Shown here: positions 12,103 through 20,214 of the stretch, piece by piece | Layout: each line of letters begins with the position of its first letter | Numbering within the stretch: the stretch's first letter is position 1 | Assembly: GCF_014207235.1 (NCBI RefSeq) | Contig: NZ_JACHDA010000001.1 | Location: forward strand, 372,001 to 436,000 | DNA length: 64,000 nt | DNA from: Sphingopyxis sp. JAI128 | GTDB lineage: Bacteria > Pseudomonadota > Alphaproteobacteria > Sphingomonadales > Sphingomonadaceae | Direction: 5' to 3' | The notes under the pieces: generated by a model | What the model was told of the DNA's origin: nothing | Database searches by the model: none | Seen by the model: only the letters and a program-made list of their open reading frames with translations | Position numbers and translations under genes: made by a program

Positions 12103-12519
12103 TCACGATCGCATGACGCCGGCATCGCGCGCATACTCCCACGCCCCCTCACCCGACCAGCCACGCCCGTCGGGAAAAACGAGCCGGAGTCCGTGGAGCC
12201 GCGCGGGCGCGAAGAGGCGCATGTTGACGCCCATCAGGTCGATAGCCCCACCCGTGCGCTCGATCAGCCCCTCGGTCGCTGACCAATGGGTCGAGCATCC
12301 GCAATTGGCGCAGAAATGCAGGTCCGAATTGGGATTCGCCCGGTCGGCACGATTATAGGTACGGGTCGGCCCTTCGATCACCACATCTTTGGGCGAATAA
12401 TAGGCCCAGAGGATGCCGTGCGAAAAACAGAGCGAGCAATTGCATTCGGCAAGCTCCTCTGGTGCCTTGGCAAGGCGAACCGAGACGGCGCCGCAGTGAC
12501 AGGACGCTTCCCAGATCAC
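12103..12519 (-). CDS. GFA-family (glutathione-dependent formaldehyde-activating enzyme-like) protein
   Basis: A 138-residue zinc protein of the GFA/CENP-V fold: SCHCGAV near the N-terminus, CNCSLC at about 27-32 and FCANCGCSTHW at about 70. These cysteine pairs bind structural and catalytic zinc. The GTG start at 12519 overlaps the glmS stop by 4 nt, so it is probably translated from the glmS message. True glutathione-formaldehyde activity is doubtful for most family members. Confidence 0.85.
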   Translation of the reverse strand: MIWEASCHCGAVSVRLAKAPEELAECNCSLCFSHGILWAYYSPKDVVIEGPTRTYNRADRANPNSDLHFCANCGCSTHWSATEGLIERTGGAIDLMGVNMRLFAPARLHGLRLVFPDGRGWSGEGAWEYARDAGVMRS

Positions 12520-14339
12520 TCCACCGTCACCGATTTCGCGAGGTTCCGCGGCTGGTCGACGTCGGTTCCCTTGGCGACCGCGACATGATAAGCCAAGAGC
12601 TGCACCGGCACCGCGTATACCAACGGTGCGATCAGCGGGTGGACCTTGGGCATTTCGATGGTCGCCATGCAGCCGTCGCCGGCGTCGGCGAGTCCTTCGG
12701 CGTCGCTGATCAGCACCACCTTGCCGCCGCGTGCCATGACTTCCTGCATGTTGCTGACGGTCTTTTCAAACAGCGGCCCGCTGGGCGCGAGAACGATTAC
12801 CGGCACCGCCTCGTCGATCAGCGCGATCGGGCCGTGCTTCATCTCGCCCGAGGCATAGCCTTCGGCGTGGATGTAGGAGATTTCCTTGAGTTTGAGCGCG
12901 CCCTCGAGCGCCAGTGGATAATCGGGGCCGCGGCCGAGGTAGAGCACGTCGCGCGCGGGGGCGACGAGGTGCGCCATCGCGGCGATGTCCTCGTCATGGC
13001 CGAGCGCGGCATTGAGCGCAGCAGGCGCCTCGATCAGATGCTTGACGATCTCGCGCTCATCCTCTGCGCTGAGCTTGCCCTTTTTGAGCGCGAGGTGCGC
13101 GGCGAGCGCGGCGAGCACTGCGAGCTGGCAGGTGAAGGCCTTGGTCGAGGCGACGCCGATTTCGGGGCCCGCGTGCGTCGGGAGCAACAGGTCGGCCTCG
13201 CGCGCCATGCTGCTCGTCGGAACATTGACGACGACTGCGATCGTCTGCCCGTTCGCCTTGCAGTGGCGAAGTGCCGCGAGCGTGTCCGCAGTCTCGCCCG
13301 ACTGCGAGATGAAGAGCGCGAGTCCGCCGGGTTGCAGCACCGGGTCGCGATAACGGAACTCCGACGCGACATCGATGTCAACGGGCACGCGCGCAAAGGT
13401 CTCGAACCAATATTTGGCGACCATGCCGGCATAGAAGCTGGTGCCGCACGCGACGATGGTGATACGGTCGATGGTCGACAGGTCAAAGTCCATCTGCGGC
13501 AGCGCGACCGTCTGTTCGAGCGGGCGGATGTAGGAGGAGAGCGTCTGCGCGACCACCGTCGGCTGCTCGAAAATCTCCTTCTGCATGAAGTGGCGGTAAT
13601 TGCCCTTCTCGACCGCCGCGGCGGTCACGCCCGAGGTGGTGATCTCGCGGATCACTTCCTGGTTTTCGGCATCGTAGATCTGCGCGCCTTCGCGGGTGAT
13701 GACGACCCAGTCGCCTTCGTCGAGATAGGCGATCTTCTGCGTCAGCGGCGCAAGCGCCAAGGCGTCGCTACCGAGATAGGTCTCCCCCTCGCCATAGCCG
13801 ACGACGAGCGGCGAGCCAAGGCGGGCACCGATGAGGAGTCCGGGCTGCTCGCGGAAAGCAATGGCGAGCGCGAAGGCGCCGCGCAGTTGCGGCAGCACCG
13901 CCTTCACCGCATCCTGCGGCGACAGGCCCGCTTCGACCTGTTCGGATACGAGATGCGCGACGACCTCGGTGTCGGTCTCGCTCTCGAATTTGCGCCCGCG
14001 CGCTTGCAGCGCCTCGCGCAGGGGCTTGAAATTCTCGATGATACCGTTGTGAACGAGCGCAACCTCGTTCGTCGCATGCGGATGCGCATTGCTCGTCGTC
14101 GGCGCGCCGTGGGTCGCCCAGCGCGTGTGCGCGATGCCGACGGTGCCGGGCGCGGGATTGCCGGCGAGTTCCTTGACCAAATTGTGGAGCTTGCCCTCGG
14201 CGCGGCGGCGGATCAGCCGGTCGCCCTCGACCGTGCATACGCCCGCCGAGTCATAGCCGCGATATTCCATACGCCTGAGGCCATCGACCAGCCGGTCTGC
14301 CACCTGATCCTCGCCGATGATTCCGATAATTCCGCACAT
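12516..14339 (-). CDS. glmS: Glutamine--fructose-6-phosphate aminotransferase (isomerizing)
   Basis: Makes glucosamine-6-phosphate from fructose-6-phosphate and glutamine, the first step to UDP-GlcNAc. The protein has 607 residues. It starts MCGIIGI with the catalytic Cys2 of the glutaminase domain, contains HTRWATHG and two SIS sugar-isomerase domains, and ends in the usual KSVTVE. The open frame continues upstream to 14615, but Cys2 must follow the initiator Met, which fixes the start at 14339. The gene begins 17 nt after the PIN toxin stop; the GFA gene follows with overlap. Confidence 0.97.
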   Translation of the reverse strand: MCGIIGIIGEDQVADRLVDGLRRMEYRGYDSAGVCTVEGDRLIRRRAEGKLHNLVKELAGNPAPGTVGIAHTRWATHGAPTTSNAHPHATNEVALVHNGIIENFKPLREALQARGRKFESETDTEVVAHLVSEQVEAGLSPQDAVKAVLPQLRGAFALAIAFREQPGLLIGARLGSPLVVGYGEGETYLGSDALALAPLTQKIAYLDEGDWVVITREGAQIYDAENQEVIREITTSGVTAAAVEKGNYRHFMQKEIFEQPTVVAQTLSSYIRPLEQTVALPQMDFDLSTIDRITIVACGTSFYAGMVAKYWFETFARVPVDIDVASEFRYRDPVLQPGGLALFISQSGETADTLAALRHCKANGQTIAVVVNVPTSSMAREADLLLPTHAGPEIGVASTKAFTCQLAVLAALAAHLALKKGKLSAEDEREIVKHLIEAPAALNAALGHDEDIAAMAHLVAPARDVLYLGRGPDYPLALEGALKLKEISYIHAEGYASGEMKHGPIALIDEAVPVIVLAPSGPLFEKTVSNMQEVMARGGKVVLISDAEGLADAGDGCMATIEMPKVHPLIAPLVYAVPVQLLAYHVAVAKGTDVDQPRNLAKSVTVE

Positions 14340-14356: not shown

Positions 14357-14734
14357 CTAGAGCGTGTAAGGAACGCGGATACCCGGCATTGCCGCCGGAA
14401 AATCCTTGATATTTCGGGTCACGAGAACGCGTCCGCGCGTCAGCGCGGTCGCCAATATGACGGCGTCCATCGCCTTCAACCGTGGCCTTTCCCGCCTCAA
14501 CGCGGCAGCGCGCTCGCCGATTTCGGCATCGATTTCGTCGACGCCGAACCCCGCCAAAAGCATTTCGACCCGGCGAAGACCGTTGCCTTCGCCTTTGGAC
14601 ATGACCTCGATCCACACGGCGCGACTAATCCATACACGACCTCTTTGCGCTGCACGCTCAAGCTCCGCACGCGCTTGCGGAAACCCCCTGAGCAGGTCGA
14701 TCAGGATATTGCTGTCGAAAGCGAAGCCGCTCAC
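14357..14734 (-). CDS. vapC: PIN-domain ribonuclease toxin, VapC-like
   Basis: The 125-residue PIN domain carries the acidic metal-binding set: D7 (FAFDSNILID), E43 (WIEVMSKGEG), D90 (AMDAVILATA) and D111 (NIKDF). VapC toxins cut tRNA or rRNA. The start overlaps the stop of the upstream RHH antitoxin by 4 nt (ATGA), the classical toxin-antitoxin layout. glmS begins 17 nt downstream. Confidence 0.92.
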   Translation of the reverse strand: MSGFAFDSNILIDLLRGFPQARAELERAAQRGRVWISRAVWIEVMSKGEGNGLRRVEMLLAGFGVDEIDAEIGERAAALRRERPRLKAMDAVILATALTRGRVLVTRNIKDFPAAMPGIRVPYTL

Positions 14735-15165
14735 TTCTTCCGACGCTTCTTCGGCTTCATTTTCGGACTGCTGTCGGAGAATAGCTCGAGGGCCCTGTCC
14801 AGCCCGGGATAGCCTTCACCCAATTTCATGCCTTGCGTGGCCAGCCACGCTTTATGAAGTTCGTGCTCGCGATCGTCCTGCTCGTCGAATAGATCGGGAA
14901 ACTCGGCACGAACTTCGGGATAATCCGGGTCCCAGGGGCGGGTGGACCCCGCCCGCTCGCGGCGCTGCCATTCGACAGAATCACCGATATCCGTCCGATC
15001 CTTCCACGCCCCGAATCCCGCCTCGATCCAATCCAATGGCGCCTGGGGACGATAGGCAGATACGGCATCGCGCAGAACCGCCGCGCGTGACTTGCCTTGT
15101 TCGACCGCAAGCTGGTCGAGCCATTTGATGTCCTCGTCGGGCAGGTCGGCCAATATTCGTGTCAT
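14731..15165 (-). CDS. Ribbon-helix-helix antitoxin of the PIN toxin
   Basis: The N-terminal 45 residues (ILADLPDEDIKWLDQLAVEQGKSRAAVLRDAV) form a ribbon-helix-helix DNA-binding domain of CopG/Arc type. The long acidic tail (residues 50-144, ending KMKPKKRRKK) presumably wraps the PIN toxin. At 144 residues it is longer than common VapB proteins, with an extra basic C-terminus. ATG at 15165 has no visible Shine-Dalgarno; the predicted promoter would start transcription almost at the ATG, so the message may be leaderless. Confidence 0.85.
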   Translation of the reverse strand: MTRILADLPDEDIKWLDQLAVEQGKSRAAVLRDAVSAYRPQAPLDWIEAGFGAWKDRTDIGDSVEWQRRERAGSTRPWDPDYPEVRAEFPDLFDEQDDREHELHKAWLATQGMKLGEGYPGLDRALELFSDSSPKMKPKKRRKK

Positions 15166-15203: not shown

Positions 15204-15518
15204 TCACGCCCGCCCGAAATTGCGGTCTACGAAGATCATGGCGAACTGCACGGGATCGGCGGGTTCGCCATTACCCGCTTCGAAGCGCGCCTTGCCCTCG
15301 TCCCAGATGCGCCGGATCTGCGCGGCCAGGTCGGCCGGGAATTTCATCTGCTGCTCGACGATCTGCGGCCAGCTGCCCTTGATGCCGAAGCTTTTTTCGA
15401 GGCTGGGGACCATCGCCTTGCAATATGTATCGGTCGCCTCGTCGAGATGGCCGATCGCGCGCAGAACCCACGCATCGACGAAGCGCAGGAAGGGCTTCTC
15501 GGTGTAGCGGTCGCTCAT
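15204..15518 (-). CDS. Conserved hypothetical protein (104 aa)
   Basis: Small soluble protein (RFVDAWVLRAIGHLDEATDT..., MKFPADLAAQIRRIWDEG, QFAMIFVDRNF) with no recognised domain, probably all-helical. Its start overlaps the glmU stop by 4 nt, so it is co-translated with glmU. It ends just upstream of the toxin-antitoxin promoter. Confidence 0.75.
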   Translation of the reverse strand: MSDRYTEKPFLRFVDAWVLRAIGHLDEATDTYCKAMVPSLEKSFGIKGSWPQIVEQQMKFPADLAAQIRRIWDEGKARFEAGNGEPADPVQFAMIFVDRNFGRA

Positions 15519-16867
15519 TTCTTCTGCTCGGCCTTCTTCTTGCGCATCGTGTCGTGGAAGCGGTCGGCCCAGCCGGGCTTCACCGACTGTTCGGCGCGAA
15601 CGAGGCGAAGTTCGCCGTCCATCACGTCGCGCGTCACCGTGCTGCCCGCCGCGACGATCGCGTCGGCGCCGATCTTCACCGGCGCGACCAGCGCGCTGTT
15701 CGATCCGATGAAGGCGCGCGGGCCGATCACCGTCTGATATTTGAAATAGCCGTCATAATTGCAGGTAATCGTCCCCGCGCCGATGTTCGCGCCCGCGCCG
15801 ACCGTGGCATCGCCGATATAGGACAGATGGTTCGCCTTCGCGCCCTTGCCGAGGGTGGCCTTCTTCACCTCGACGAAATTGCCGACCTTGGCCTTTTCCT
15901 CTAGCACCGCGCCGGGGCGCAGCCGGGCATAGGGGCCGACCTCGCAGCCCGCGCCGACGCGGGCGCCCTCGATATGGCTGAAGCCGCGGATCGTCGCGCC
16001 TTCGCCGACGATTACGCCGGGGCCGAAAAACACGTGGGGTTCGACCGTCACGTCGCGGCCGAGCGCGGTATCCCACGAGAACCAGACCGTTTCGGGCGCC
16101 TTCAGCGACACGCCCTCGGCCATCGCCTCCTCGCGCCTGAACGCCTGCCACTGCGCCTCGGCGGCGGCGAGTTCGGCTCGGCTGTTGATCCCAGCGACTT
16201 CGGCGGCGCCGGTCTCGATTACGGCGACGCGCCCGCCTTCGGCAATCGCGCCCGTCGCCACGTCGGGGAGATAATATTCGCCCTGCGCATTGTCGTTGCC
16301 GACCGCTTCGAGCAGACGCCACATGTCCGCCGCTCCAGCGACGATGACGCCCGAATTGCAAAGGTCCACCGCACGCTCGGCCGCCGACGCATCCTTATAC
16401 TCGACCATTTTGCGGACGGTGCCGTCGGCATCGGCGATGATCCGGCCATAGGCCCCCGCGTTGGCCGGCCGAAAGCCGAGCACGGCGACCGATGCGCCAC
16501 CCTCGAGCGCGCCGCAGAGACGCAATATGGTGTCGGCGGTGAGCATCGGGCAGTCGCCGAAGCAAACGAGGACGATCCCGTCGAAACCGGCCAAAGCGCC
16601 CTTCGCCTGGAGCGCTGCGTGCGCGGTTCCGAGCTGCGGATCCTGCACCGCAACGACCGCGCCGGTGCCGGCGAGCGCCGCTTCGACCTGTTCGCGCTTG
16701 TCGCCGACGACGACCACCGTCGCGGCGGGGCGCAGTTGCCCAAGCCCCCCCAGCAAATGCAACAGCATCGGCCGCCCGGCGATCGGGTGCAGGACCTTGT
16801 GCAGGTCGGACTTCATGCGGGTTCCCTTGCCCGCGGCAAGGACGATGGCGGCAATCGGACTGGTCAT
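15515..16867 (-). CDS. glmU: Bifunctional N-acetylglucosamine-1-phosphate uridyltransferase / glucosamine-1-phosphate acetyltransferase
   Basis: Makes UDP-GlcNAc for peptidoglycan and lipopolysaccharide. The N-terminal pyrophosphorylase domain has LAAGKGTRMKS (about 8-18). The C-terminal left-handed beta-helix has hexapeptide repeats (KVGNFVEVKKATLGKGAKA... NIGAGTITCNYDG), with the catalytic His in the KANHLSYIGD region. 450 residues from the ATG at 16867, preceded by GGGA; a second ATG four codons upstream (16879) is possible. Confidence 0.96.
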   Translation of the reverse strand: MTSPIAAIVLAAGKGTRMKSDLHKVLHPIAGRPMLLHLLGGLGQLRPAATVVVVGDKREQVEAALAGTGAVVAVQDPQLGTAHAALQAKGALAGFDGIVLVCFGDCPMLTADTILRLCGALEGGASVAVLGFRPANAGAYGRIIADADGTVRKMVEYKDASAAERAVDLCNSGVIVAGAADMWRLLEAVGNDNAQGEYYLPDVATGAIAEGGRVAVIETGAAEVAGINSRAELAAAEAQWQAFRREEAMAEGVSLKAPETVWFSWDTALGRDVTVEPHVFFGPGVIVGEGATIRGFSHIEGARVGAGCEVGPYARLRPGAVLEEKAKVGNFVEVKKATLGKGAKANHLSYIGDATVGAGANIGAGTITCNYDGYFKYQTVIGPRAFIGSNSALVAPVKIGADAIVAAGSTVTRDVMDGELRLVRAEQSVKPGWADRFHDTMRKKKAEQKK

Positions 16868-16926: not shown

Positions 16927-17595
16927 ATGGACGGATTTCCTTTCGCGACCGTTGGCTTCGACCTGGACGGCACGTTGCTCGACACGCTCGGCGACCTTGC
17001 GGCCGCGGTGAACCATGTGCTGGCGACGATCGACCGCGCGCCGCTGAGTGCGGACGCGGTTCGCCCGCTGGTGGGCCTCGGCACGACGCACCTGCTTGAA
17101 GGCGCGCTCGCCGCAACGGGAGGCATCCCGCAGGACGATGTGCCCCGGCTCCTGCACGAATTGCTTGCCTATTATGAAGCGCATATCGCCGTGCGCAGCC
17201 GGCCCTTTCCCGGCCTCATCGCCGCGCTCGACCGGCTTGATACGATGGGGGTGCGCACTGCGGTCGTCACGAACAAGCTCGAGCGCCTCGCGCGCCAGCT
17301 TCTGGGCGAATTGGGGCTCGCCGACCGGATGGCGACGATCATCGGCGGCGATACGTTGGGACCGGGAAAGGCCAAGCCGTCGCCCGCGCCCGTCCGCGCG
17401 ATGATCGAGCGGTGCGGCGGCGGTCGCGCAGCGCTGATCGGCGACAGCATCTTCGACGTCGAAGCCGCGCGCGGTGCGGGGGCGACGAGCGTGCTGGTCA
17501 GTTTCGGCTTCCTGCATCGCCCCGCGGCCGAGCATGGCGCCGATCATATCATCGATCATTTCGACGAACTGGTCCCGTTGCTCGCGACATTGTGA
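16927..17595 (+). CDS. gph: Phosphoglycolate phosphatase-like HAD hydrolase
   Basis: A 222-residue HAD phosphatase: motif I FDLDGTLLDT (11-20), motif II VVTNKLERLA, the lysine in GPGKAKPSPAP and the acidic motif LIGDSIFDVEAARGAG. Length and the small helical cap fit Gph, which removes 2-phosphoglycolate formed during DNA repair. It is divergent from glmU, a neighbourhood common in sphingomonads. A close paralogue such as a pyrophosphatase PpaX cannot be excluded. Confidence 0.85.
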   Translation: MDGFPFATVGFDLDGTLLDTLGDLAAAVNHVLATIDRAPLSADAVRPLVGLGTTHLLEGALAATGGIPQDDVPRLLHELLAYYEAHIAVRSRPFPGLIAALDRLDTMGVRTAVVTNKLERLARQLLGELGLADRMATIIGGDTLGPGKAKPSPAPVRAMIERCGGGRAALIGDSIFDVEAARGAGATSVLVSFGFLHRPAAEHGADHIIDHFDELVPLLATL

Positions 17596-17614: not shown

Positions 17615-18631
17615 TCAGGACCCTTTCCGCCACTTCGTCCACAAATGCCGCGCGAGCATCGCGGGCGGCATGCGCAGCCAGTGCGAGCGGATGTAAAAGG
17701 CCTGTTCCAGCAGCGGATTCGTGACGCGGCCCCAATCGTCGCGCGCGAACAGACGGCGGCGAAACCAGAGGTCGACCGGATCGTGCCTGTCCCAGCCTTG
17801 GGGCAATCGCGCGCCATAAAGGTCGCGCGACAGCCGCGCGGCGCGATGCACCGCGCCGCGCAAACCGTGCAGCGCGGCACGCCCGTCGAGCTTGCCCCAG
17901 AAGCCCGGATCGGTCGCCACGAAATCGCGCGTCATCGTGTGGAAATCCCACAGGTTGCGCAACCCGCCCTGCAAATCGCCGTCCGCAAGCATGTGCGCCG
18001 CGCAATGAACCGCCATGTCCGCAGGGCAAAGCACGGCGTAACCATCGGCGCTGCGGACCGCGTCGCTCATCAACGCGAGCGCGTCGGGCGTGATACGGTG
18101 CGTGCGGGGCAGGATCGTGTGATGAACGTCGATCATCCGATCGCGCGCCTTGTGAATCAGTGGCGGCAGTTCATGCATATGCGCACGGTAATAATGATCG
18201 TCATAGGGATCGGACTTCACCCATTCCCAGCCCGCCTTGAGCAACAAATTCTCGGCGCGGCGGATGTCGGAGGCAAGGACGAGGATATCGAGATCGCCGA
18301 TCTGTCGCCCTTCGGCGCAGGCCATGCCGGCGACGGCATAGGCGGCCCCCTTCAGGAGCACGAACTCGACGCCGGCGGGCGCAAGCGCGCGTCGGGCCAT
18401 TTCGGCCTCCCATAGTGCCTGCGTCTGTGCGACTTTTGCCGCCATGCGCTGATCGGCAAAGAGCGCCGCGACGGTCGGGGGAAGGGCGGCACCTTCGAGG
18501 AGGAAGGCGAGCGTGGCGAGCATGGCTTCGCTGCGCGCGACGCCGATGATACCGTCCCAGTCGGGCCGCGCCAGCTTGGCCGGATCGCGGCGACCGGCCA
18601 GCAGGTCGACCAAGGCGACCACCGCGCTCAC
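17615..18631 (-). CDS. Nucleotidyltransferase-family protein of an HPr-rel-A-type system
   Basis: The 338-residue protein belongs to the NTP_transf_5 (PF14907) type. The fold is marked by FVLLKGAAYAV (90-100), GDLDILV (112-118) carrying the two acidic residues of the metal site, and a third acidic MIDVHH (166-171). The helical C-terminal half has many Trp, His and Arg residues. It starts 2 nt after the stop of the HprK-related kinase and is last in the MarR-PqqD-kinase-nucleotidyltransferase unit. A nucleotidyltransferase with an HPr-kinase-like enzyme is also known from lasso-peptide clusters such as paeninodin. Its substrate here is unknown. Confidence 0.85.
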   Translation of the reverse strand: MSAVVALVDLLAGRRDPAKLARPDWDGIIGVARSEAMLATLAFLLEGAALPPTVAALFADQRMAAKVAQTQALWEAEMARRALAPAGVEFVLLKGAAYAVAGMACAEGRQIGDLDILVLASDIRRAENLLLKAGWEWVKSDPYDDHYYRAHMHELPPLIHKARDRMIDVHHTILPRTHRITPDALALMSDAVRSADGYAVLCPADMAVHCAAHMLADGDLQGGLRNLWDFHTMTRDFVATDPGFWGKLDGRAALHGLRGAVHRAARLSRDLYGARLPQGWDRHDPVDLWFRRRLFARDDWGRVTNPLLEQAFYIRSHWLRMPPAMLARHLWTKWRKGS

Positions 18632-18633
18632 CG

Positions 18634-19497
18634 CTACGCCTCGGCCCAGAGATGTTCGACCAGGCCGATGCCCGCCTCGCTGTCGGGATAGGAAATGGCG
18701 AACGCCGGCGTTTCGCGCACCAGTCGCGTCAGCGCGGCAAAGCCCGCTTCGCCGAGCGCGACATAGTTGGTCGATGCCTCGGTCAGCCGGACGAAGGCTT
18801 CGCCCTCGCCCATCGGCTCGACAGCCGATTCGCCTCCGAAGCGGGGGAAGAGCAACAACGCCGGGCGCGCGGGTTCGTGCATCGCGGCGATCGCATCGGC
18901 GCGCGGGACAAGGTGGCGGATATCGCCCTTCGGCGTTCCCGCGAGCAGCGGCCCGAGGCGCGCCGCATCCACGCGCGCCGCGACCTCGGCGATCGCCTCG
19001 TTCTTGAGGCTGACTGCGCGCGGAAAAGCCAAAGCGTCGCCGTCCGCCGGGTCGATCAGCGTGAACTCGTCGCCCATCAGCCGCCAGTCGCCTCCTTCCC
19101 CCAGCAGCGCGGCAAGCGTCGATTTACCCGACCCCGATTCGCCCGACATGATCAGCGCGCGGCCATCGCGTGCAACAGCGCTCGCATGAAGCAACATATG
19201 TCGCCGCCAGCCGAGCGCGACCTGCAAATTCATCGCCATTTCGGCAGCAAGCAGGCCCATCGGCAGTGGCAGCGGCAGCGCGTCCGGGACCACGAAATCA
19301 CCGCCGATATGAACCGAGGGACGCAACCAGCGCCGCCACGGCCGCGCGGCGAACAACCGCACCGTTGCATCGGCGGGGCGCATGCCGTCCTTTGGATAGA
19401 CCGCGTACAGACGCTCAAGCGCTGCGATCGGCTCCGCCCAGTCGCTGCCGATACGGAATTGCACCGGACCAACAGCAATGCGGGTCTCGTGCCTCAC
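18634..19497 (-). CDS. HprK-related kinase A
   Basis: The 287-residue protein resembles the catalytic domain of HPr kinase. It has LLHASAVARDGRA (about 102-114), a P-loop SGESGSGKST (118-127) and GDEFTLI (142-148) where HPr kinase has its catalytic acidic residue. It lacks the N-terminal domain of true HprK, and no PTS gene is near, so it more likely modifies another peptide or protein. Its start overlaps the PqqD-like stop by 4 nt, and the nucleotidyltransferase follows after 2 nt. Confidence 0.9.
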   Translation of the reverse strand: MRHETRIAVGPVQFRIGSDWAEPIAALERLYAVYPKDGMRPADATVRLFAARPWRRWLRPSVHIGGDFVVPDALPLPLPMGLLAAEMAMNLQVALGWRRHMLLHASAVARDGRALIMSGESGSGKSTLAALLGEGGDWRLMGDEFTLIDPADGDALAFPRAVSLKNEAIAEVAARVDAARLGPLLAGTPKGDIRHLVPRADAIAAMHEPARPALLLFPRFGGESAVEPMGEGEAFVRLTEASTNYVALGEAGFAALTRLVRETPAFAISYPDSEAGIGLVEHLWAEA

Positions 19498-19775
19498 GCG
19501 CGCTCCACCAGCCCCATGGCGGCAAGTTCGGCAAGGCGTTCGGCAAGGACCGGTATGGCATCGCCCTCGCTTTCGAGATCGAACGACGCGGCAAGGCGTC
19601 TGGCGAGCGCGGTCGCGTTCGAGGCATCGTCGCCCATTGTTTCCAAGATCTCGGGCATCGGCGAAACGACGAGGTGTGTCTGCATCGAACGGCGATCGAA
19701 TAGCGCGGTCAGCTCGCCTAGCGGCTCGATGCGCAGCGCGTCCGCCCGCGCGGCGCGATAGGCCCGGTCAGTCAT
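19494..19775 (-). CDS. PqqD-family protein of an HPr-rel-A-type system
   Basis: A 93-residue PqqD-like protein, a fold that serves as a RiPP recognition element holding a precursor peptide's leader. It runs from RIEPLGELTALFDRRSMQTHLV through SPMPEILETMGDD to a C-terminal helix ending LAAMGLVERA. It is the partner expected beside an HprK-related kinase A. It overlaps the MarR gene upstream (8 nt) and the kinase downstream (4 nt). No precursor-peptide gene was found nearby. Confidence 0.85.
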   Translation of the reverse strand: MTDRAYRAARADALRIEPLGELTALFDRRSMQTHLVVSPMPEILETMGDDASNATALARRLAASFDLESEGDAIPVLAERLAELAAMGLVERA

Positions 19776-20214
19776 AGGTTTCGGCGGCAGCGGTCAACTT
19801 TGCCAGGATCGCCATCAACGTCGCGCGTTCGCTTGCGCTGATGTTCGATTCGAGCCGCGTCTCACTGGCAAGCGCGGCGGGCACGATGGCATCGTAGAGC
19901 GAACGTCCGGTATCGGTGAGGTCGAGATGATGCGAACGCCCGTCGGCCTGATGCGCCTCGCGCGCAATGAGCTGGCGATCGGCGAGCGCCTTTGCCGCCC
20001 TGTTTACGGTCACCTTGTCCATGCGAGTCGCCTCTACCAGTTCGCGCTGCGTTTTCGGCGTCCCTTCGCCAAGGACCGCCATCAGCCGCCATTCGGGAAT
20101 TTTCAGCCCGAAGCGGTTCTGATATTCAGCAGCAATCCGGCTCGACAGGGCGTTCGACGCGATGGACAGGCGGTACGGCAGGAAATTGTCTAGATTCAGC
20201 TTCTTCGTGGCCAT
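19768..20214 (-). CDS. MarR family transcriptional regulator
   Basis: From the ATG at 20214 the protein has 148 residues and a MarR winged-helix fold: GLKIPEWRLMAVLGEG, then the recognition helix ELVEATRMDKVTVNRAAKAL and the wing REAHQADGRSHHLDLTDTG. An upstream in-frame start at 20232 adds six residues. It is first in the unit with the PqqD-like, kinase and nucleotidyltransferase genes and probably regulates them, although regulators of this type are also often simply autoregulatory. Confidence 0.88.
   Translation of the reverse strand: MATKKLNLDNFLPYRLSIASNALSSRIAAEYQNRFGLKIPEWRLMAVLGEGTPKTQRELVEATRMDKVTVNRAAKALADRQLIAREAHQADGRSHHLDLTDTGRSLYDAIVPAALASETRLESNISASERATLMAILAKLTAAAETYD

Follow-up and report, generated by a model that had tools for sequence, protein, structure and literature searches.

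In a 64,000-nucleotide stretch of the Sphingopyxis sp. JAI128 genome (hereafter the window; C1:372001-436000 in our numbering of this genome, G000), four consecutive genes encode a MarR-family regulator, a PqqD-like protein, an HprK-related kinase and a nucleotidyltransferase (NTase). These genes are a real, little-studied protein-modifying set of the HPr-rel-A type. Its substrate, which the first-pass annotation of the window had left open, is very likely, on sequence comparison, a small protein with a twin-arginine (RR) signal: of 108 genomes with the kinase, 56 have a conserved gene for such a protein adjoining the set, and the JAI128 genome holds a copy. Taken as a whole, we consider it probable that the PqqD-like protein guides serine modification of a small protein that is exported by twin-arginine translocation (Tat) and serves an exopolysaccharide layer.

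The HPr-rel-A unit

The kinase and the adjoining PqqD-like protein both exceed the NCBIfam cut-offs of the HPr-rel-A models TIGR04352 and TIGR04353 (Table 1), which bears out the module type proposed in the first-pass annotation. The second model is labelled 'HPr-rel-A system PqqD family peptide chaperone', and the window shares with this system the kinase, the PqqD and the adjoining NTase. The tight packing of four genes on the minus strand was likewise described correctly, the NTase and kinase genes being 2 nt apart, kinase and PqqD overlapping by 4 nt and PqqD and MarR by 8 nt; an upstream TTG would extend the MarR open reading frame (ORF) to 20232. The kinase P-loop (G122, G124, K125, T127), D143-E144 and K190-G191 are invariant among 18 aligned homologues, as are K94, G95, R109, D113, D115 and D168 of the NTase among 17. 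The P-loop and metal site are accordingly kept, as had been claimed, and the poor conservation of kinase catalytic residues that had been named as refuting evidence was not seen.

The name HPr-rel-A, its two model names and their accessions are not mentioned in the open-licence literature searched. AlphaFold2 models from single sequences had a mean predicted local distance difference test score of 41.9 for the kinase and 58.4 for the PqqD, too poor for a fold search. Against solved structures, the kinase profile met HPr kinases (E=5e-4) in a match confined to the P-loop region, and the NTase and substrate profiles gave no useful match. A PADLOC search returned one weak match, mads_8 to the kinase (E=0.0069), and none for the other three proteins tried.

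A candidate substrate family

Two samples were searched, one of 60 relatives (36 genomes of the window's genus and 24 others of the order) and one of 398 genomes of the phylum, which together hold the 108 kinase-bearing genomes. Substrate discovery used 15-20-kb stretches around the kinase in 19 genomes (L062-L080), with scripted gene calls followed by clustering; L063 was misread by the gene-calling script and was read by hand. At 18 of the 19 loci, the gene upstream of PqqD encodes an RR-signal protein, and at the other (L077) neither a PqqD nor an RR-signal gene lies at the kinase. These proteins were first noticed by position and not by motif; some fall into similarity clusters c4 and c29, and the rest are singletons. 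The first-pass annotation had advised seeking a conserved small gene beside the triad in relatives. Such a gene was found, although its product is not the short ribosomally synthesized and post-translationally modified peptide (RiPP) that had been envisaged but a protein of ~120-240 residues with a Tat-like RR signal, a Cys just after it and, usually, a C-x-x-S motif near the C-terminus. This last motif is present at 11 of the 18 loci (L062, L070-L076, L078-L080) and absent in L063-L069.

A profile of the family, A1, was built from 28 rows from 27 genomes, gathered by a motif scan with R[RK] and C-x-x-S. R16 is invariant and R15 conserved in at least 90% of the rows, the RR/RK pair having been part of row selection, and both Cys reach at least 90%, the second having also been part of that selection. 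Candidate substrates scanned against NCBIfam (9 proteins) and Pfam (11 proteins) gave no match above a family cut-off; these scans found no substrate family for HPr-rel-A, to which the present work adds a candidate one.

When the JAI128 genome was searched with A1, the single strong match was C1:478662-479063 on the minus strand (E=2.5e-30; the next match had E=0.48), 42.7 kb past the right end of the window; no substrate was found within the window. The encoded protein is predicted to have 137 aa, with SRRKML, an AFAQ stretch, NCQIPVP and the tail SGFTCFASITTSR. Among ORFs of at least 20 aa, none in the 284 nt ahead of MarR resembles a precursor. Thus, the earlier remark that no precursor ORF is visible holds for the window and fails for the genome. 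Around the relocated gene in five genomes of the genus, there is no PqqD and no kinase; a gene that we take to resemble a PhoR-type sensor adjoins it in four of the five gene calls, the region in the fifth being called on the other strand. A tatC gene is present in the JAI128 genome.

Across 31 sequences from the genus, mean column identity reaches 0.95 for the signal, 0.90 for the tail and 0.89 for the body, and is 0.56 ahead of RR, a figure affected by start codons that were chosen by script. A signal peptide that is no less conserved than the mature protein suggests a dedicated reader. The motif C-x-x-S occurs in 31 of 31 genus sequences, including 29 of 29 outside A1, all found with a profile that itself holds the motif. 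At other loci outside A1, it occurs in 20 of 22, the misses being L068 (G161) and L132 (G185).

A different RR-signal protein occupies the same spot in ten genomes (G074, G078, G325, G328, G352, G375, G394, G396, G404, G431; families f45, f48, f76 and f84; loci L063-L067, L069, L129, L131, L133 and L140), with an [ST]-P-G stretch in seven of the ten. A gene of cluster c7, presumably for a trypsin-like protease, lies nearby at five of these ten loci. In G040 (L151:4828-5547), a substrate-like protein has poly-Asp stretches in its body and keeps the tail SCWTS, with a profile score of 21 bits. In G099 (L141:4527-6829), a divergent kinase (100 bits) and an NTase (72 bits) are preceded only by a 70-aa ORF with a hydrophobic stretch, and this pair is possibly a third variant.

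Co-occurrence and linkage

The kinase, either complete or truncated at a contig end, is present in 36 of 36 genomes of the window's genus and in 13 of the 24 other genomes of the order, and the HPr-rel-A set is a core system of this genus. Among the 60 relatives, 58 have some kinase match at E<=0.001 and 47 exceed the cut-off; together with G040 (187.8 bits) and the contig-cut G018 (177.6 bits), 49 were counted as kinase-positive. Nine of the remaining 11 order members have short P-loop matches of at most 31 bits, and two (G046, G052) have none. In the phylum sample, 62 of 398 genomes have kinase matches at E<=1e-25, 61 of them above the cut-off.

The substrate follows the kinase closely. Among the relatives, A1 finds it in 48 of the 49 kinase-positive genomes, 11 of which gave A1 rows, and in 0 of the 11 kinase-negative ones; in the 49th, G040, it was found by reading. 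The phylum sample yields 59 A1 matches at E<=0.001. A line at E<1e-7 was chosen with these matches in view, and the 50 beyond it are all in kinase-positive genomes. Seventeen of these 50 genomes gave A1 rows, leaving 33 out of sample; three of the strong hits (G161, G185, G240) match A1 mainly over the signal. Scored as kinase above cut-off against strong substrate, in counts made from typed lists, 50 genomes have both, 11 the kinase only, none the substrate only and 337 neither (phi coefficient 0.89). Families f1, f5, f6 and f8 are mixed, some of their members lacking both genes and others having the pair; in f6, G040 alone has the pair, by reading.

Of the 108 kinase genomes, 95 have a substrate by A1; sorted by hand, 56 copies lie no more than ~2 kb from the kinase, the one in G196 being on the opposite strand, and 39 lie elsewhere. 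A substrate gene adjoining PqqD recurs in many families, and the association outlasts physical separation. The 39 unlinked copies comprise 34 in the window's genus and those of G081, G128, G140, G184 and G326. The 13 genomes without an A1 match are G040, which belongs to the family by reading, the ten with a different RR-signal protein, G248 and G099. In G081, G128, G184 and G326 (L142, L143, L144, L146), a PqqD gene adjoins the separated substrate, and the kinase was found to have none at its side; G140 yielded no PqqD at either location. A second substrate-PqqD pair occurs in G244 (L147). In those four genomes and in G244, PqqD goes with the substrate protein; the window's genus is the opposite case, in which PqqD stayed with the kinase and the substrate became unlinked.

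Rearrangement at the locus

Because L074-L076 share the order substrate, PqqD, kinase, NTase and clusters c10, c9 and c8, and homologues of the same three clusters lie in the window (Table 1), the triad is, by gene order, at its ancestral place; the substrate gene moved away and MarR stands in its old position. Of 19 genus loci that were read, 17 have MarR directly upstream of PqqD, in agreement with the earlier statement that it heads the unit, and G015 and G017 still have the substrate there. We take c10, c9 and c8 to be a HAD phosphatase, glmU and glmS, respectively; a Pfam scan supports the HAD phosphatase. Between the glmS-like and glmU-like genes, positions 14357-15165 of the window hold two small overlapping genes that we assume to resemble a PIN-type toxin-antitoxin pair. 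L075 and L076 have genes of the same two clusters (c13 and c14) in this position.

Table 1. Features of the window (window positions) and the lasso cluster on contig C5.
Feature	Location	Strand	Details
NTase, PF14907 NTP_transf_5	17615-18631	(-)	338 aa; 165.6 bits vs cut-off 31.2; predicted second modifying enzyme
HprK-related kinase A, TIGR04352 HprK_rel_A	18634-19497	(-)	287 aa; 221 bits vs cut-off 200; predicted serine kinase
PqqD-like, TIGR04353 PqqD_rel_X	19494-19775	(-)	93 aa; 54 bits vs cut-off 35; predicted substrate-binding chaperone
MarR-family regulator, PF12802	19768-20214	(-)	148 aa; 49.5 bits vs cut-off 27
c10 homologue	16927-17595		same cluster
c9 homologue	15515-16867		same cluster
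c8 homologue	12516-14339		same cluster
Phospho-lasso cluster	L162:4345-11261 = G000:C5:337344-344260		49-aa lasso-leader precursor ending in Ser, with tailoring set

Exopolysaccharide and sulfotransferase partners

The genomic partners of the HPr-rel-A set are XrtA-type exopolysaccharide genes. In the phylum sample, the TIGR03108 amidotransferase exceeds its cut-off in 62 of 398 genomes, namely 55 of the 61 kinase genomes (all except G078, G108, G136, G244, G352 and G431) and 7 of the 337 others. Counts for xrtA are 25 genomes with both it and the kinase, 36 with the kinase only, 10 with xrtA only and 327 with neither; phi is 0.88 for kinase and TIGR03108 and 0.48 for kinase and xrtA. In L073, the one operon of this kind with a gene-by-gene annotation, the order runs from a chain-length determinant, a tyrosine autokinase, wecB, an XrtA polysaccharide deacetylase, FemAB and two XrtA glycosyltransferases to substrate, PqqD, kinase, NTase and amidotransferase. 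In the JAI128 genome, xrtA and TIGR03108 are both on contig C2 (313 and 880 bits), and homologues of the deacetylase, FemAB and amidotransferase from the same clusters sit there with xrtA, away from the triad. The available sections of the 2006 description of the XrtA/PEP-CTERM system make no mention of PqqD, and the kinase spoken of there is the histidine kinase PrsK (PMC1569441). With that system, the present set shares its place inside such an operon in L073 and the frequent TIGR03108; it differs in that XrtA exceeds its cut-off in fewer than half of the kinase genomes and that most candidate substrates end near C-x-x-S and not with PEP-CTERM.

Neighbouring genes were counted in 45 kinase stretches of 9 kb or more. 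An NTase gene is found in 41 of them. In three of the remaining four, the kinase is followed by a sulfotransferase gene; both kinds of gene occur in L072, where the sulfotransferase matches PF13469, and in L122. The last tailoring step thus seems to vary by lineage. A TPR-sulfotransferase-like protein is encoded beside the kinase at L072:8722-10392 and L080:9921-11651, and near the kinase in L122, L125 and L126. The amidotransferase gene occurs in 11 of the 45 stretches, mostly right after the NTase.

This genomic context bears on two other accounts, both of which we consider improbable. In one, the small protein is an accessory or regulator, such as a periplasmic partner in exopolysaccharide export, and the kinase and NTase act on a sugar. 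An exopolysaccharide operon with glycosyltransferases, deacetylase and amidotransferase would suit such a role, as would the glmU- and glmS-like genes (c9 and c8) that neighbour the set both in the window and in three relatives. However, PqqD-type proteins are described as peptide-binding in RiPP clusters (PMC7470986, in part), in four genomes where the genes have separated PqqD accompanies the small protein and not the enzymes, and a conserved C-terminal C-x-x-S is the expected look of a modified tail. In the other account, the modification falls on another residue, for example a conserved Cys, the Ser is structural and the TIGR03108 amidotransferase is the key second enzyme. The conservation of both Cys in the profile, the position of the amidotransferase gene after the NTase and a phi of 0.88, next to 0.89 for the substrate, would agree with this. 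But because the amidotransferase is also present in the seven kinase-negative genomes, all with xrtA above its cut-off, it belongs to the wider exopolysaccharide system, and in the window's genome it lies with xrtA, away from the triad. Modification of the small protein on its C-x-x-S serine remains our preferred account.

A phospho-lasso cluster in the same genome

The first-pass annotation had likened the unit to the kinase and NTase tailoring of paeninodin-type lasso clusters, a comparison that we judge apt. An RRE/PqqD protein (RRE, RiPP recognition element), an HprK homologue and an NTase, sometimes with a sulfotransferase, are shared with the lasso systems of paeninodin, pseudomycoidin and Bsf, and the first of these, together with an HprK-like kinase and a PF14907 NTase, are present in the window set. 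The set differs in having no B2 protease or lasso cyclase, in a kinase of a distinct NCBIfam family and in a candidate substrate that is a protein with a Tat-like signal. In lasso systems, the C-terminal Ser of the precursor is the phosphorylation site of the HprK homologue. In the pseudomycoidin cluster, the NTase extends the resulting phosphate by one or two hexoses, and some clusters also have sulfotransferase genes (PMC8498205, in part). Bsf differs in the site: BsfK, accelerated by the RRE protein BsfB1, phosphorylates Ser3 and not the C-terminus (PMC10368454, in part).

The JAI128 genome itself carries a phospho-lasso cluster on contig C5 (Table 1), with a B1 (PF05402), a B2 (NF033537), a cyclase (438 bits to NF033535, below the cut-off of 525), an HprK-type kinase and a PF14907 NTase, and presumably an ABC-transporter-like gene. 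Matches to PF13471 and NF033535 in this genome at E<=0.001 lie on C2, C4 and C5 and none on C1. Beside the window set, no lasso precursor was seen upstream of MarR, and neither B2 nor cyclase adjoins it. The missing cyclase and protease were thus noted correctly, but they are no defect, the separate cluster on another contig having its own set. Further B2-type protease genes at L163:5777-6615 and L164:4837-5991 (G000:C5 and C4), each preceded by an ORF of 42-44 aa, look like additional lasso-type clusters.

The lasso reading was set aside as the main explanation because of the B1, B2, cyclase, kinase and NTase that the C5 cluster has of its own. It is quite unlikely that the triad is an orphan RiPP tailoring set for a short peptide, of lasso type or otherwise, that is encoded at another place, perhaps in the C5 cluster: PqqD, HprK-like kinase and PF14907 NTase are also the tailoring set of that cluster, whose precursor ends in Ser, and two more B2-type genes exist in the genome, but its kinase and NTase show only local identity, of 24-36%, to those of the window, and the triad kinase, found throughout the genus, tracks the RR-signal protein nearly one to one. 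The HPr-rel-A set and the C5 lasso set look like parallel uses of one tailoring logic.

Discussion

The modification of a Tat-exported protein that we favour can be laid out as a sequence of steps. The PqqD-like protein would bind the precursor much as Tat proofreading chaperones do, probably by its strongly conserved signal sequence. The HprK-like kinase would then phosphorylate the C-x-x-S serine in the cytoplasm, and the NTase would add a sugar or nucleotide to the phosphate, with a sulfotransferase acting beside it or instead of it in some lineages. The finished protein would leave through Tat and serve the XrtA-type exopolysaccharide layer. Binding, phosphorylation and elaboration by the NTase are proposed because lasso systems follow the same logic. 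By this analogy, phosphorylation of the C-x-x-S serine by the kinase is moderately likely and transfer of a sugar by the NTase is tentative; a matrix role for the modified protein is finely balanced. A bolder version, which we regard as rather unlikely, is a new protein phosphoglycosylation, in which a phospho-sugar (or sulfated) handle on the near-C-terminal Ser would join the Tat-exported protein to the exopolysaccharide matrix, with PqqD at the signal peptide.

The closest parallel for the first step comes from redox enzyme maturation proteins such as DmsD and TorD. According to PMC3316669, each dedicated chaperone reads one Tat signal, recognizing its hydrophobic part and not the variable N-terminal region, and cytoplasmic maturation is completed before export. 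The present system differs in that the chaperone is PqqD-like and a covalent modification is proposed in place of cofactor loading.

Several points weigh against this interpretation. All the evidence is comparative; it establishes the gene set, the substrate family, their co-occurrence and linkage, sequence conservation and the exopolysaccharide context, whereas binding, Ser phosphorylation, the NTase product, Tat export and matrix function are inferred from it. The A1 rows were chosen by RR and C-x-x-S, which partly builds in the invariance of these motifs, and later sequences were found with A1. The strong-hit line falls in a gap between 2.7e-8 and 1.1e-6, set with the results in view, and the nine weaker A1 matches at E<=0.001 are all in kinase-negative genomes and cover N-terminal stretches only. 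Related genomes are not independent and Fisher values for the co-occurrence counts ignore phylogeny, so that no weight is placed on P values. Among nine candidates searched against Pfam at E<=0.1, a single one met the TAT model PF10518, at 13.2 bits and below the cut-off of 22.7. No C-x-x-S lies near the end of any of the ten different RR-signal proteins, and G161 and G185, which match A1 mainly over the signal, also lack it; because of these genomes, the C-x-x-S Ser cannot, on the sequences compared, be a universal acceptor, and the acceptor may not be the same everywhere. G099, with its kinase below the cut-off, has no clear substrate, and G248 is cut by a contig end. The NTase was not found in 4 of the 45 kinase stretches. 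XrtA was considered as a strict partner and rejected, only 25 of the 61 kinase genomes having it above the cut-off, with a phi of 0.48 against 0.88 for the amidotransferase. Finally, a shared MarR operator was not seen: compared by eye, 24 upstream regions of MarR and 29 of the relocated substrate have no conserved block in common.

HPr-rel-A has so far been a name in public annotation, and the candidate substrate family now makes its function testable. If the proposed modification of the RR-signal protein is true, RRE-guided tailoring by a kinase and an NTase would reach beyond peptide natural products to the maturation of exported proteins in widespread exopolysaccharide systems, and chaperoning of signal peptides would be a role that a PqqD-type protein can take.

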